From positions 5,890,001 to 5,954,000 of the forward strand of contig NZ_CP074102.1 in NCBI RefSeq assembly GCF_018310535.1: a stretch of DNA of 64,000 nt, read 5' to 3'. The position numbers and the translations under genes were made by a program. Positions 27,373 through 32,513 of this stretch are shown here, in pieces. Every line of letters starts with the position of its first letter. The first letter of the stretch is position 1. Under the pieces are notes generated by a model. The model saw only the letters and a program-made list of their open reading frames with translations. It had not been told where the DNA came from and did no database searches. The stretch is from Streptomyces mirabilis. GTDB taxonomy: Bacteria; Actinomycetota; Actinomycetes; Streptomycetales; Streptomycetaceae.

Positions 27373-29844
27373 TCAGGCGGCTCTGCGGGGCTCGGAGGAG
27401 GTGGCGAGGTCCGCCTCGGCCCAGACGATCTTGCCGCCGGGCACCGAGCGGACACCCCATCTGCGGGACAGCTGGGCGACCAGGAACAGGCCGCGGCCGT
27501 TCTCGTCGACGGCGCGTGCGTGACGCAGCCGCGGGGGGCAGCCGCCGGCGTCGAACACTTCGCAGGTCAGGACCTGGTGCCGGACCAGGCGCAGACCGAT
27601 CGGGCCGATACCGTGACGGAGGGCGTTGGTGACCAGTTCGCTGACGATCAGCTTCGTGGTGTCCTCGAGACGTTCCAGACCCCACGCGGCCAGCCGGCCG
27701 GCGGCCAGGTCCCGGGCATCGCCGACGGCGGACTGGTCGCACGGCAGCGTCCAGGAGGCGACCTGACCCGGGTCGAGCGCGCGGGTCCGTGCCAGGAGCA
27801 GGGTGACGTCGTCGGTCGGCGCCCGCCCCGCGGCGGACTCCGTGGCGCGGGTGCAGCGCTCCTCGAGGGAGTCGGCCGGTCCCGCCAGGGCCGCGCCCAG
27901 CCGGCGCATGCCCGCGTCGATGTCCTGGTCGCGGCTCTCGACCAGGCCGTCGGTGTACAGGGCGAGGAGACTCTCTTCGGGCAGGTCCAGTTCCACGGCC
28001 TCGAAGGGGATGCCCAGGCCGAGGCCCAGGGGCGGACCGGCGGGCAGGTCGGGGAAGGCGACCCGGCCCTGTGGATCGATGATCGCGGGCGGCGGGTGCC
28101 CGGCCCGTGCCATGACGCACTTTCGCGTGACCGGATCGTAGACGGCGTACAGACAGGTGGCGCCCATCACCGCGGGGGTCTGGTCCGGGTCGTAGGCATC
28201 TTCCTCGGCCAGTCGCTGGACCGTGTCGTCGAGGTGGGTCAGCAGCTCGGCGGGGGACAGCTCCATGTCGGCGAGGGTGTGGACGGCGGTGCGCAGCCGG
28301 CCCATGGTCGCGGCGGCGTGCAGCCCGTGGCCGACCACGTCGCCGACGACAAGAGCCACCCGGGCGCCGGACAGGGGGATCACGTCGTACCAGTCGCCCC
28401 CGACGCCGTTGTCGAGGTCGGCGGGCATATAGCACGAGACCGCCTCGACGGCCGCGCCGCCGCGCAACCGGTGCGGCAGCAGGTTGCGCTGGAGCGCGAG
28501 GGCCGCGGTGTGTTCGCGGGCGTACTGGCGGGCGTTGTCCAGCGACAGCGCGGCGCGACCGACCAGTTCTTCGGCCAGGAGCAGATCGATCTCCTGGAAC
28601 GGCACCGGGTTCTCGGTGCGGACGAACACGGCCACCCCGAGCAGGGTGCGCCTCGCGCGGATGGGAACCACCATCAGCGAATGGATGCGGTTCTCCCTGA
28701 CCTTCCGCGCCCGTGCCGGGTCCTGGTCGAACCAGGTGCCCTCGGCGGTGTCCAGGACAGGCTCCAAGTGGGGCCGCCCGGTGCGCAGTACGTCCGTGAA
28801 GGGTGAGGTGGGCGGCATGACCACCGGGTCGCCGCGCTCCCAGGGGGATTCGGGAACCCCTTGATGGATCGAGGCCAGACCGGCCCGCCGGAAGACGGGG
28901 AGGCGCCGGTCTGCCGGGCCGACGCGGACCGGGTGCCCGTCGCCGAAGGGGATCGACTGCTCCAGGTCCACGGCGACGTAGTCCGCGAACAGGGGCACGG
29001 CGAGGTCGGCCAGTTCCTGGCTGGTCCGCATCACGTCCAGGGTGCTGCCCAGGCGTACGCTGCCCCCGGTGAGGATGGCCAGGCGTTCGTACGCCCGCCG
29101 GCTCTCGGTGACGTCGACGTTGATGACACAGACCCCGAGCACTCGGCCGTCGGCGCCCTGGAGACGGAAGATCGACGCTGCGAACGTGTGGTCCCGGCGC
29201 GGACCCGGTGCGAGCCACGACCGATAGGTGTGGACACTGCTCACGCCGGTGTCCAGCACCTGCCGCATCGTCGCCTCGAGCGCCGCGGCCCTGGGACCGG
29301 ACAGCACGTCGGTGAACCCGCGTCCGAGCCGTCGCTCAGCGGGGATGCCGTCGTGGCTCTCCATCGTGTCGTTCACCCACGTACAGCGCAGCCGCAGGTC
29401 ACGGAACACGATGCCGATCGGTACGCGGGCGAGAAGCGACTCCCGCACCGATCCGGTCACCGTGTCCCCCGACAGCATCCCGGCGTCGGTCACCGACACG
29501 AGCCAGCCGACGGCTCCGTCCTGCCCGCGAACCATGGAGATCCGCAGGCTGACGACGAGGGGGCGGCCGTCGCGGTGGCGCACCGACGTCGTCCCCGACC
29601 AGCCGCCGTGGACACGGCACCGTTCGATGAACACCGATGCCGTCGGCGCGTCCTCGGACGTCAGCAGGACCAGAGCGGCGGATCGGCCCACCACGTCCCC
29701 GGCGGAGTATCCGACGAGCTGCTCGGCCGCCCATGTCCAACCGACGACGGTCCCCTGCTCGTCGAGCATCGCGATGGCCGAGTCGGACATCTCGCGCGTG
29801 CTCAGCAGCTGCTCACCGGTCGTCACCTTGTCCATGCTGATCAT
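27373..29844 (-). CDS. PAS-PAS-GAF-SpoIIE phosphatase with HATPase domain
   Basis: An 823-residue cytoplasmic regulator. Two PAS domains (about residues 18-120 and 140-255), a GAF domain (about 270-445), a PP2C-type SpoIIE phosphatase (about 455-665; VGGDWYDV, GDVVGHG, ALYTDGLVE) and a C-terminal HATPase_c anti-sigma-kinase-like domain (about 690-815; SELVTNALRHG, DENGRGLFLV). Proteins of this type control anti-anti-sigma factors in stress partner switching; no such partner gene is adjacent. ATG at 29844 with GAGGA upstream. A TGTCACA-N16-AGTC element at 29937-29963 faces it. Confidence 0.92.
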   Translation of the reverse strand: MISMDKVTTGEQLLSTREMSDSAIAMLDEQGTVVGWTWAAEQLVGYSAGDVVGRSAALVLLTSEDAPTASVFIERCRVHGGWSGTTSVRHRDGRPLVVSLRISMVRGQDGAVGWLVSVTDAGMLSGDTVTGSVRESLLARVPIGIVFRDLRLRCTWVNDTMESHDGIPAERRLGRGFTDVLSGPRAAALEATMRQVLDTGVSSVHTYRSWLAPGPRRDHTFAASIFRLQGADGRVLGVCVINVDVTESRRAYERLAILTGGSVRLGSTLDVMRTSQELADLAVPLFADYVAVDLEQSIPFGDGHPVRVGPADRRLPVFRRAGLASIHQGVPESPWERGDPVVMPPTSPFTDVLRTGRPHLEPVLDTAEGTWFDQDPARARKVRENRIHSLMVVPIRARRTLLGVAVFVRTENPVPFQEIDLLLAEELVGRAALSLDNARQYAREHTAALALQRNLLPHRLRGGAAVEAVSCYMPADLDNGVGGDWYDVIPLSGARVALVVGDVVGHGLHAAATMGRLRTAVHTLADMELSPAELLTHLDDTVQRLAEEDAYDPDQTPAVMGATCLYAVYDPVTRKCVMARAGHPPPAIIDPQGRVAFPDLPAGPPLGLGLGIPFEAVELDLPEESLLALYTDGLVESRDQDIDAGMRRLGAALAGPADSLEERCTRATESAAGRAPTDDVTLLLARTRALDPGQVASWTLPCDQSAVGDARDLAAGRLAAWGLERLEDTTKLIVSELVTNALRHGIGPIGLRLVRHQVLTCEVFDAGGCPPRLRHARAVDENGRGLFLVAQLSRRWGVRSVPGGKIVWAEADLATSSEPRRAA

Positions 29845-29936
29845 CGGGCTTCTGTCCTCGGATAGACGGTCTGGGGCGATGTTGCGGTCCAGGCAGATGC
29901 AGGCATCAGCTGGTTGTCTGCATCTTTCGGGTACTT

Positions 29937-29963
29937 GACTGGATTGCCGCCCTTTTTGTGACA
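29937..29963 (-). promoter_or_regulatory. ECF41-like promoter facing the SpoIIE gene
   Basis: Minus strand TGTCACA (29963-29957), 16 bases, then AGTC (29940-29937). Described ECF41 promoters have TGTCACA and CGTC at this spacing, so the -35 is exact and the -10 is 3 of 4. It lies 93 bases upstream of the phosphatase start and diverges from the element at 30013. Confidence 0.6.
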
Positions 29964-30012
29964 GCTCTGGTTCTGTGAAAGCTCGGGCGAAGTCGATTCG
30001 GCCGTGCCGGGC

Positions 30013-30039
30013 TGTCACAGGTCGCATGGCCATCCGGTC
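30013..30039 (+). promoter_or_regulatory. ECF41-like promoter facing the AhpD-like gene
   Basis: TGTCACA at 30013-30019, 16 bases, then GGTC at 30036-30039, 47 bases before the AhpD-like start. The -35 is exact and the -10 is 3 of 4 to CGTC. Confidence 0.65.
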
Positions 30040-30085
30040 AGTGGTGTGTATGCGCACGTATCCGCACTACGGCAAGGAGATCACC

Positions 30086-30559
30086 GTGGAACCGCGTCTC
30101 GACTTCTTCGGCAGCCCCGTCGGGGGCAAGGTGCTCAAGCACATCAACTCGGCCAACAAGGTCGTCTCGGACTCGACCCTCCCGGCCGTCATCCAGGAAC
30201 TGGTCAAACTCCGCGCCAGCCAGATCAACGGCTGCGGCTTCTGCACCGACATGCACAGCAAGGACGCCGCCCAGGCCGGAGAAACTCAGCAGCGCCTCAA
30301 CCTGGTCGCCGCCTGGCGTGAGGCCACCGTCTTCACCGACGCCGAACGCGCCGCCCTGGAACTGGCCGAACAGGGCACCCGCATCGCCGACGCGGCCGGC
30401 GGCGTCACGGACGACGCCTGGGCCGGCGCCGCCAAGCACTTCGACGACGACCAGCTCGCCGCACTGGTCTCACTCATCGCCGTCATCAACGCCTACAACC
30501 GCATCAACGTCATCAACCAGCAGCCCGCCGGCGACTACCGGCCCGGCCAGTTCGGCTGA
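30086..30559 (+). CDS. carboxymuconolactone decarboxylase/AhpD-like protein
   Basis: A 157-residue protein of the alkylhydroperoxidase D-like fold. The redox pair and histidine are seen in NGCGFCTDMHSKDA, the CxxC-x(3)-H signature, so thiol peroxidase or disulphide reductase activity is expected rather than decarboxylation. GTG at 30086 has AAGGAGA at ideal spacing; an upstream start at 29975 would span the promoter. Genes of this COE group (carboxymuconolactone decarboxylase, oxidoreductase, epimerase) are the usual targets of ECF41 sigma factors, and such a factor lies 1 kb downstream. Confidence 0.92.
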   Translation: MEPRLDFFGSPVGGKVLKHINSANKVVSDSTLPAVIQELVKLRASQINGCGFCTDMHSKDAAQAGETQQRLNLVAAWREATVFTDAERAALELAEQGTRIADAAGGVTDDAWAGAAKHFDDDQLAALVSLIAVINAYNRINVINQQPAGDYRPGQFG

Positions 30560-30710
30560 CCGACCCCGAAGGAACGGGAACCATGCTCAGCTCGGCGGCC
30601 AGGACCGATCGGTCGGTGATCACCAGGCTGTTCGAGCCCGATATGACCGCGGGCAGAAGGGTGACCACAAGCACGACTCGTACTTCGTGCAGTGAGCGAA
30701 GGCAGCCTGG
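30560..30710. other. intergenic segment with possible gene-tail remnant
   Basis: Between the convergent AhpD-like and cupin genes. One plus-strand frame ends in DRGQKGDHKHDSYFVQ and a TGA at 30693, which looks like a protein C-terminus but lacks any start or body. I cannot name the parent family. No terminator hairpin is obvious. Confidence 0.3.
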
Positions 30711-31157
30711 TCAGGCGTCCGGGCGGGGAGCACGCAGGTGCTTCCGCTCGGCCAGCTCCTTCTCGTCGACCAGGGTGAGCATGGGCTGACCGGGCGCGCA
30801 CATCATGGTGACGAGGAAACGGCTCCACGAGTCGGTCCGGTTGTTGCCGTCCTGGTAGTGGATGACGTCGCCGCCCGGCTCCCAGAATGTCTCCCCGGCC
30901 TTGATCACGCGCTCGGGCTCGCCTTCCAGCTCGAAGAGCATCTCCCCTTCGAGCATGTAGCCGAAGGCGGGCCCCGAGTGCCGGTGCGGAGGGGTGCCGG
31001 GGTCACCGGGAGGGAACGCGACGAGGACCGTCGTGGCCTCCGCCCCTTCGGGAACGAACGGCGGTTGCGCCGTCTGCAGCACGGTGAGCGCTGTCTTCCA
31101 TGCCTCCGAGCGCGGTCGGGGCGCGGCGCTGCCGGTCGCCGGATCGTCGTTCGACAT
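30711..31157 (-). CDS. cupin domain protein
   Basis: A 148-residue single-domain cupin. Motif 1 is visible as PPHRHSGPAFGYMLEGE and motif 2 as PGGDVIHYQ, giving the expected His/Glu metal ligands. ATG at 31157 follows GAGAGAGG. The frame remains open upstream to 31295 because the remnant of another gene is in the same phase. It may be an oxidoreductase-type or storage-fold enzyme; the substrate is unknown. Part of the ECF41 neighbourhood by position. Confidence 0.85.
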   Translation of the reverse strand: MSNDDPATGSAAPRPRSEAWKTALTVLQTAQPPFVPEGAEATTVLVAFPPGDPGTPPHRHSGPAFGYMLEGEMLFELEGEPERVIKAGETFWEPGGDVIHYQDGNNRTDSWSRFLVTMMCAPGQPMLTLVDEKELAERKHLRAPRPDA

Positions 31158-31232
31158 GGTGAGGCCTCTCTCGGTGAGTTGGACGGCTGGTTCAGGAGAG
31201 GGGGAGGCGCCGTCGGAGGTCGGCGAAGCGGT

Positions 31233-31343
31233 CGGATCGACCACGACCTCGGCGTCGGTCACCGCCTCGTGTCCGTCCCCGTTCGGTCTCTTCACGACCT
31301 ACTACCCGATCAATCCGGTGCCGCCGAACACCGCGAACTTCAT
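31233..31343 (-). pseudogene. remnant of NAD(P)-binding epimerase/oxidoreductase
   Basis: An ATG at 31343 preceded by GGGAGG at good spacing opens MKFAVFGGTGLIG, a perfect N-terminal Rossmann motif of the SDR/NAD-dependent epimerase class. Two consecutive TAG codons follow, and then VVKRPNGDGHEAV in the same frame, matching the next helix-strand of the family. After that the similarity fades. The body is gone. It lies in the same phase as the cupin start. The fossil is of the oxidoreductase/epimerase type typical of ECF41 targets. Confidence 0.7.
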
Positions 31344-31540
31344 GGGGCACCTCCCGTCGCGCACCGGACGGTCACGTGGCCTTGCGTCCATACTGCGACG
31401 CCGCGGTGCGCCCCGCACGCGGCACACGCTCTCCGGCAGCCCGGGGGCTCTGTGTGCCGGGGGCGACGCCGATGGTCCGTGGTCCGAGTGAGAGGCGAGG
31501 GACCCGCTTGTAGCATGGTGATCACGGGCTGGAGGAATTC

Positions 31541-32437
31541 ATGCGCGACCGGGACGACACCGACTCTCTCGACCGGGCGACGAGGGATTTCATCGCGGCG
31601 CGTCCCCAACTCTTCGGTATCGCCTACCGCGTGCTCGGCAGCGTCGCGGAAGCCGAGGACATCGTCCAGGACGCGTGGCTGCGGTGGCAGAACACCAACC
31701 GCGCGGACGTTCACGAGCCGGCCGCGTTCCTGGCCACGGTCACGGCCCGGCTGGCGATCAACGTGGCCCAGTCCGCGCGGGTGCGCCGCGAGTCGTACGT
31801 CGGGCCCTGGATCCCCGAGCCGGTCGACACGAGCGCGGATCCGCAGTTGGGCGCGGAACGGGCGGAGGCACTGGACCTGGCGGTCCTCTTCCTCCTGCAG
31901 AAGTTGAACCCCGTGGAACGGGCCGCCTACGTGCTGCGGGAAGCCTTCGACTACCCGTACAAGCAGATCGCGGAGATGCTGGAGACGAGCGAGGCGAACA
32001 CGCGGCAGCTGGTGAGCCGCGCTCGCAAGCATCTCTCCTCGGAACGCGCGGCGCCGGTCAGCTCCACCGCTCACCGGCGCCTGCTGGAGGTGTTCCTCGC
32101 CGCGGCGCAGACGGGCGACCTGTCGGCACTCGAGGGCGTCCTCACCGAGGGTGTTGTCAGCTACACCGACGGTGACGGCGTGCGCGGCGCGGCCAGGATT
32201 CCGGTCGTCGGACGTGAGCACGTCACCAAGTTCGTCGCCGCCTTCGCCCCGCGTTTCTGGCCCGAGACCGAGGTGCGCTGGGTCGAGGCCAACGGCAGGC
32301 CGGCCGTCCTGGTTTCGGCCGGTGGCAACGCGTCGGCTCTCCTGTCCGTCGACGCGTCGGCGCGCGGCATCGAACGCCTCCTGTGGGTCATGAACCCCGC
32401 CAAGCTGGATCCCTACGTGACTTCGCTGCAGCAGTGA
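31541..32437 (+). CDS. ECF41-group sigma factor with SnoaL-like C-terminus (SigJ family)
   Basis: A 298-residue sigma-70 family factor. Region 2 reads QLFGIAYRVLGSVAEAEDIVQDAWL and region 4 has KQIAEMLETSEANTRQLVSRARKHL. The linker WIPEP, the DGDGVRG loop and the C-terminal NPAKLDPY are the ECF41 hallmarks (WLPEP, DGGGR, NPDKL). The SnoaL-like C-terminal domain acts as a built-in regulator in this group, replacing an anti-sigma factor. ATG at 31541 has GGAGG. Predicted target: the AhpD-like gene and perhaps the SpoIIE gene. Confidence 0.95.
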   Translation: MRDRDDTDSLDRATRDFIAARPQLFGIAYRVLGSVAEAEDIVQDAWLRWQNTNRADVHEPAAFLATVTARLAINVAQSARVRRESYVGPWIPEPVDTSADPQLGAERAEALDLAVLFLLQKLNPVERAAYVLREAFDYPYKQIAEMLETSEANTRQLVSRARKHLSSERAAPVSSTAHRRLLEVFLAAAQTGDLSALEGVLTEGVVSYTDGDGVRGAARIPVVGREHVTKFVAAFAPRFWPETEVRWVEANGRPAVLVSAGGNASALLSVDASARGIERLLWVMNPAKLDPYVTSLQQ

Positions 32438-32450
32438 CAAAAGCTGTCAC
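32434..32450 (+). promoter_or_regulatory. inverted repeat at sigma-factor stop, with third TGTCACA
   Basis: GTGACA and TGTCAC form a perfect 6-bp inverted repeat with AAAGC between, straddling the sigma-factor stop codon. The right arm is the start of a TGTCACA at 32445-32451, with TGTC 15 bases further. It could end the transcript or promote antisense transcription into the convergent SDR gene. Confidence 0.4.
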
Positions 32451-32513
32451 AGATCGCCGTACCGCCTGTCGTACTGAGCGACAACCCAGGCGAACGCGGC
32501 AAGGCCGTTGCTG

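Follow-up and report, generated by a model that had tools for sequence, protein, structure and literature searches.

In the stretch of Streptomyces mirabilis DNA analyzed here (64,000 nucleotides, hereafter the window), two promoter-like sites lie between a gene for a large SpoIIE-domain regulator and a gene of the AhpD/CMD type. Judging from sequence comparison, they are probably divergent promoters read by a nearby sigma factor of the ECF41 (SigJ-type) group of extracytoplasmic function (ECF) sigma factors, encoded 1.5 kb away, which would activate both the CMD and the SpoIIE gene. The initial annotation had noted two back-to-back TGTCACA motifs followed by xGTC in this region, and we recovered both with a spacer of 16 nucleotides (nt). 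The first, P_spoIIE (29937..29963, minus strand, TGTCACA-n16-AGTC), reads into the SpoIIE gene, and the second, P_CMD (30013..30039, plus strand, TGTCACA-n16-GGTC), reads into the AhpD/CMD gene. Their -35 elements are divergent with 49 nt between them, and transcripts would be expected to start near 29930 and 30046, respectively. ECF41 factors are a widespread sigma group with a poorly known role, and in the available parts of a dedicated study they are described with a single enzyme target (PMC3426412; this and the other papers cited below were available in part).

The published ECF41 promoter reads TGTCACA-n16±1-CGTC (Wecke et al. 2012, PMC3426412). Both sites in the window have the heptamer, a spacer of the published length and a CGTC-like -10 element, which is here AGTC or GGTC and not CGTC. 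Enrichment of the heptamer TGTCACA was dropped as evidence, as the window holds 3 copies against 4.32 expected. The longer pattern TGTCACA-N17-GTC is rare: it has 10 matches across the 9.62 Mb genome (the reversed control pattern has 1), and two of these ten are the divergent SpoIIE/CMD pair; with ten sites, the expected number of pairs within 76 bp is about 0.0007. A looser pattern, TGTCACA-N14-18-CGTC, was rejected: it gave 11 matches in the same genome and 4 with its control, and fixed spacing was adopted for that reason. Of the eight remaining sites, two (L021, L026) lie less than about 100 nt ahead of co-oriented genes that are not of the CMD type, and we did not count these genes as targets. 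The pattern YCNGTC with a free seventh base adds five sites, one of which (L151) lies directly before a same-direction gene. Another of the eight, at 183046 (L001:1501-2159), reads TGTCACA-n16-CGTC and stands ahead of another CMD gene, which is a candidate target of another ECF41 factor.

In order to determine how far the SpoIIE-side site is conserved, we collected relatives of the SpoIIE protein from 18 named loci, from 30 loci in 295 genomes of the genus, and from 20 further upstream regions (16 at ≥54% identity and 4 at 51-53%; the other listed rows, including five at 54-57%, were left out). A tree was built from 44 distinct proteins after 4 identical sequences had been collapsed, and clades were read from the drawn tree. 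The window protein falls in a clade of 15 with support of 100/100. The initial annotation had staked its proposal on conservation of the motifs in relatives, and the motif is indeed conserved: a strict site is found in 12/15 clade genes, 90-221 bp upstream, correctly oriented and with a spacer of 16 nt in every case, and for the 29 proteins that the same tree places elsewhere no motif occurs within 400 bp. Two more clade members (L062, L103) have one-mismatch sites (TGTCACG-n16-CGGTC or TCGGTC-type) at 117 and 111 bp, and in the last (L068, S. fructofermentans) the motif lies ahead of the preceding same-direction gene, a hydrolase by eye. When the 12 strict sites are aligned, TGTCACA, GTC and the C two bases before GTC are invariant, and each of the 25 columns preceding the motif carries at most 1.1 bits. 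Among the further upstream regions, the site is present in all four copies at 67-70% identity (L127-L130) and absent from 15 of the remaining sixteen, including that of the 66% paralog in the same genome (L131). These comparisons strongly support the SpoIIE-side site as a conserved, ECF41-type promoter element that would be specific to one SpoIIE clade. Two copies at 67-70% identity, L129 and L130, are tandem SpoIIE genes of one genome (G273), each with its own upstream ECF41-type site. A site of the same type also precedes a shorter SpoIIE-domain protein of 397 aa elsewhere (L083:5514-6704, minus strand).

The layout of the window, with both promoters, recurs in S. brasiliensis (L059); its ECF41, CMD and SpoIIE proteins are 95%, 90% and 89% identical to those of the window. 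Apart from the window, S. brasiliensis (L059, with L098 as an identical copy) was the sole case of the divergent SpoIIE/CMD arrangement; at the other loci the SpoIIE gene is preceded by a site of its own. In S. brasiliensis the -35 elements are 32 nt apart instead of 49, both spacers remain 16 nt long, and the SpoIIE-side site again has AGTC, with a single difference in its spacer. These details bear on two other explanations. One is that ECF41 control is limited to the CMD-side promoter, the SpoIIE-side site being inactive here and the SpoIIE gene transcribed otherwise. The unusual AGTC of that site fits such an account, as does the finding of a single target in B. licheniformis and R. sphaeroides (available parts of PMC3426412) and the lack in the window locus of several genes found in S. 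brasiliensis. We consider it improbable, given that the site is kept across the SpoIIE clade against 0/29 outside it and that S. brasiliensis retains the same AGTC. Less probable still, to a degree that we would hardly expect it to hold, is that the inverted pair TGTGACA...TGTCACA acts as an operator bound by a dimeric regulator and not as two promoters. The two -35 elements are indeed arranged as an inverted repeat, and 38/392 genomes contain double sites, but the distance between the elements is variable (32 nt in S. brasiliensis, 49 nt in the window, 35-65 nt allowed in the double-site scan), so that an operator of fixed spacing is disfavoured; most members of the SpoIIE clade have a single site only, and GTC follows after 16 nt in all 12 strict cases.

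Promoter conservation is accompanied by association with the sigma factor. An ECF41 gene is present in the fetched flank (up to 7 kb) of 6/10 named clade loci and of 0/8 named controls, several control contigs being short. In one genome (G153, L101) an ECF41 gene, 73% identical over the 64 residues that lie on the contig, is directly divergent from the SpoIIE gene. Across genomes, a close relative of the window sigma factor (E≤1e-70) occurs in 10/10 genomes with a site-bearing SpoIIE gene and in 2/22 others (Fisher's test, 1e-6). Among the ten, one genome has a one-mismatch site, in another the site lies ahead of the preceding gene, and a third has a partial SpoIIE match at 61%; 34 genomes were scored, and two positive ones (G118, G246) were excluded from the test, having been chosen for their promoter islands (described below). 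A quick tree of the sigma factors, with sequences shorter than 250 aa omitted, places the window sigma, those of L059, L060, L063, L064 and L065, and the island sigmas together in a group of 17 (SH-aLRT 99), within which one row (L082) has a long branch. Both paralogs from the window's own genome and the second sigma of L060 fall outside this group.

The -10 elements appear to follow the same division. At loci of the window-sigma group (clade A) we observed CGGTC, CTGTC, TGGTC, CAGTC or TTGTC, and TCGTC in 0/73 sites. At loci of a second ECF41 group (clade B) TCGTC is found in 22/23 sites, the single exception being the SpoIIE site of L066; the clade B sites come mostly from one orthologous locus, and this ratio therefore represents far fewer independent events. 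The split suggests a possible specificity code between two ECF41 clades, one that can be tested. It also bears on the possibility that the sites are genuine but read mainly by another ECF41 paralog, or by several, the adjoining sigma factor not being the main regulator. The initial annotation held that the window encodes only one ECF41 factor, and a search with the sigma protein itself agrees, the sigma gene being its sole match within the window; the same genome encodes at least two further ECF41-like proteins, 42% and 38% identical to the window sigma. Their existence favours such a paralog, as do the CGTC-type site before the other CMD gene at 183 kb and the L066 locus, where the sole flanking sigma belongs to another clade. 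However, both paralogs lie outside the clade associated with xGGTC/xTGTC sites, and the flanking ECF41 genes at the named SpoIIE loci have no counterpart among the named controls; we regard control by a paralog as unlikely, somewhat less so than an inactive SpoIIE-side site. The initial annotation had further suggested that the same ECF41 factor controls the SpoIIE gene, which would connect it to partner-switching stress control. The first half is favoured by comparison, through the clade-wide site, the co-occurrence of the sigma factor and the -10 type that follows the sigma clade; the interpretation as a whole is borne out in part.

We also scanned Streptomyces genomes for the divergent double-site pattern irrespective of locus. 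It occurs in 38 of 392 genomes (35-65 nt allowed between the -35 elements; the reversed control gave none), and in several of these genomes the sites are clustered. Strict sites (TGTCACA-n16-SGTC) were counted by hand in the resulting islands of five genomes: 17 in G118 (3239292-3304499), 18 in G172 (899142-960604), 18 in G141 (2964107-3029150), 18 in G020 (contig 45, 11211-63223) and 12 in G292 (contig 1, 317070-362781), which corresponds to 12-18 strict sites per 46-65 kb. Twenty 20-kb stretches (L077-L096), chosen for double sites, were taken from G172, G292, G118, G246, G141, G111, G020, G237, G306 and G070. In these stretches all 137 sites are intergenic (simple gene caller, 30 bp tolerance), and 70% of bases are coding; in the annotated loci, 179/221 sites have a called gene start within 400 bp. 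CMD genes stand behind ECF41-type sites at 22 loci. Other families found behind such sites include NAD-epimerase-like proteins, cupins, a fumarate reductase/succinate dehydrogenase (SDH)-type flavoprotein, 4Fe-4S ferredoxin, ferredoxin-reductase-like proteins, cytochrome b, further Pyr_redox_2 proteins, OsmC, DoxX, alpha/beta hydrolase, methyltransferase, MarR, nitroreductase and 2-hydroxyacid dehydrogenase. Families were called from one representative each, and 1/20 representatives matched no family; CMD and cupin genes were recognised through their resemblance to the window's own proteins. Besides these redox and respiratory genes, the islands hold several SigJ-type sigma genes. Among ten sigma factors from the islands and the SpoIIE loci, 6 score above the SigX4 cut-off and 4 have SigJ or SigX4 as best match but fall below it.

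The number of sites per genome tracks the presence of this sigma clade. We tallied TGTCACA-N15-CKGTC by hand over 199 genomes of the genus, in which the reversed control reaches at most 3 matches per genome and a close ECF41 factor (E≤1e-85) is found in 44. At least four sites occur in 32/44 genomes with a close ECF41 factor versus 3/155 without one (G004, G105, G184), and at least ten in 18/44 versus 0/155. The larger finding is this island-scale set of ECF41-type promoters, which in relatives accompanies the same sigma clade. A single-target model does not describe what we observed, namely two divergent sites in the window and the many strict sites per island. We tentatively propose, as an idea that we think has the odds somewhat against it, that a subgroup of ECF41/SigJ factors runs a large clustered regulon in some Streptomyces, with islands of 12-18 or more promoters ahead of redox, respiratory and peroxidase-like genes, and that in a minority of these species the regulon also includes the PP2C phosphatase clade, giving a two-tier sigma cascade. 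If true, a conserved multi-promoter regulon would give ECF41 factors a recognisable physiology of redox and electron-transport genes, and its promoters could serve as reporters for finding the signal of the SnoaL-like domain.

Several observations weigh against the proposed control by the adjoining sigma factor. The genome under study is itself poor in ECF41-type sites. Twelve of the 44 genomes with the sigma factor have fewer than four CKGTC sites, and the window's genome is among them, with 1 site (AGTC falls outside this pattern). AGTC, the -10 element of the SpoIIE site in the window, is a minority type, found in 3/73 clade A sites. L066, one of the six clade loci with an ECF41 gene in the flank, holds there only a sigma factor of another ECF41 clade, and the one region with a site among the sixteen more distant ones, L139, belongs to a SpoIIE protein outside the tree (61% identity over a partial match). 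A SpoIIE protein at ≥67% identity was found, among the matches listed, in nine of 295 genomes (G000, G237, G212, G275, G153, G087, G196, G273, G172) and in only 5 of the 44 genomes with a close ECF41 factor; the phosphatase therefore belongs to the presumed regulon only occasionally and is no core target. In the available parts of Wecke et al., only COE (carboxymuconolactone decarboxylase, oxidoreductase or epimerase) and ECF41 genes were found as targets (PMC3426412). Finally, no STAS_2 domain was found in the window or in five related islands (only part of the candidates was scored, and PF01740 was not searched), and the partner-switching step accordingly rests on no genomic link.

The mechanism that we consider is as follows. 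RNA polymerase carrying the ECF41 sigma factor would read both divergent sites. The putative SnoaL-like domain fused to the sigma factor would gate its activity, and in the permissive state the CMD gene and the gene for the PAS-GAF-PP2C-HATPase protein would be started. The phosphatase/kinase protein could then alter the phosphorylation of a STAS-type anti-anti-sigma factor encoded elsewhere, as would be expected from knowledge of the family (PPM family, available parts of PMC11418112). By family knowledge alone, such a change might alter the activity of a SigB/SigF-like sigma factor. The genome does encode STAS_2 proteins, with 9 matches at E≤0.001, 8 of them over the cut-off (150 of 199 candidates scored). 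We regard a partner-switching outcome as plausible. The SpoIIE gene would then offer a testable route from an ECF sigma factor to partner switching, and a two-tier cascade, if true, would have a SnoaL-gated sigma factor trigger a second one, joining two regulatory principles.

Known systems resemble parts of this arrangement. The closest solved sequence to the window sigma is M. tuberculosis SigJ (5xe7), which has sigma domains and a SnoaL-like extension; the likeness is one of sequence similarity only. The closest solved sequence to the SpoIIE protein is M. tuberculosis Rv1364c (3ke6), with a match over the PP2C and kinase-like region (residues 469-747). Rv1364c has a STAS domain as well, and its action is on the SigF system. 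In contrast, the window protein shows no STAS match in Pfam. The ECF41 systems of Wecke et al. share with the window the C-terminal extension, the W(L/I)PEP linker motif, TGTCACA-n16±1-xGTC promoters, a CMD target and, in some cases, cupin genes nearby, but their COE gene or operon is the sole target detected in the available text (PMC3426412), whereas the SpoIIE gene in the window has a site of its own and relatives have 12-18 per island. OsaC of S. coelicolor is, by description, likewise a large multidomain regulator and interacts with SigB through its kinase domain; unlike in our case, no ECF41 control is mentioned in the portion available (PMC10117811). Azospirillum RpoE10 is an ECF41 factor with effects beyond the COE gene, so that wider effects of such factors, going by these mentions, are not wholly unprecedented; its output is lateral flagella, unlike the genes considered here, and the available passages mention no phosphatase or island (PMC8999054, PMC12826043). 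In the portions of the literature available (including PMC8103513, PMC9205884 and PMC11256431) we found no multi-gene ECF41 regulon in Streptomyces, no report of ECF41 control of a SpoIIE gene and no link from an ECF factor to partner switching, which does not establish their absence from print.

A third TGTCACA, placed by the initial annotation at the end of the sigma gene, is present at 32445..32470 on the plus strand, starting 8 nt beyond the end of the sigma stop codon; we add to it a -10 element, TGTC, at a spacing of 15 nt. A same-direction TGTCACA-n16-xGTC lies 22-239 nt past the sigma stop in 14/20 loci of relatives (72-82% identity; L152-L170). Five of the twenty (G022, G132, G196, G087, G172) had been picked for an already visible site, and without them the count is 9/15. 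For 13 of these 14 sites (all but that of L167), the gene that follows resembles, by eye against the families above, OsmC, SDH-type flavoprotein, ferredoxin reductase or epimerase genes. In S. brasiliensis the third site reads n16-GGTC, and the contig stops there. In the window no same-direction gene follows; the next gene is an opposing short-chain dehydrogenase/reductase (SDR) gene, and the spacer is one nt shorter. The third site occupies a conserved promoter position, and in the window it is probably a promoter that has lost its gene. The locus differs from S. brasiliensis elsewhere too: the window is without most of an epimerase-like gene, located in S. brasiliensis between the sigma and cupin genes, and without most of a stretch with an SDR and a second cupin that lies there between the genes for sigma and CMD. 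Short matching stretches are left at 30597-30651 and 31256-31344; the latter (approximately 31256..31344, minus strand, blastn of L059) matches the first part of the epimerase-like gene only.

The SpoIIE regulator (27373..29844, minus strand) is a protein of 823 aa with the Pfam domain order PAS-PAS_4-GAF-SpoIIE(PP2C)-HATPase_c_2, its SpoIIE domain (PF07228) scoring 184 bits. Its start is best taken as the ATG at 29844 in preference to the mechanical GTG at 30057. All 15/15 members of the SpoIIE clade have intact PP2C motifs (GGDW[YF]D, GDVVGHG, YTDG and DD, with the metal-binding Asp) and an intact N in the N-box of the ATPase. The AhpD/CMD gene (30086..30559, plus strand; PF02627, 76 bits; TIGR00778, 65.3 bits) is best taken to start at the GTG at 30086, with AAGGAG ahead of it.

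The sigma gene (31541..32437, plus strand; stop codon 32435-32437) encodes 298 aa with r2 and r4_2 domains in Pfam. It scores 340.7 bits against TIGR02957 (SigX4; cut-off 323.25), with a match extending to residue 290, and 276.6 against NF007214 (SigJ; cut-off 271); we take TIGR02957 to stand for ECF41 through its SigJ relatives. Its linker has WIPEP at residue 90, where WLPEP is described (available parts of PMC3426412). The C-terminal extension is present by length, and SnoaL_2 is matched weakly (19.1 bits against a cut-off of 27, E 0.0021). A COE-type neighbour, the CMD gene, lies 1 kb before the sigma gene. The 390 bp ahead of the sigma gene contain no ECF41-type site, and autoregulation is therefore not visible. 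The cupin gene (30711..31157, minus strand; PF07883) has none of the window's ECF41-type sites ahead of it; at other loci, relatives of this cupin (family fam3) sit behind such sites.

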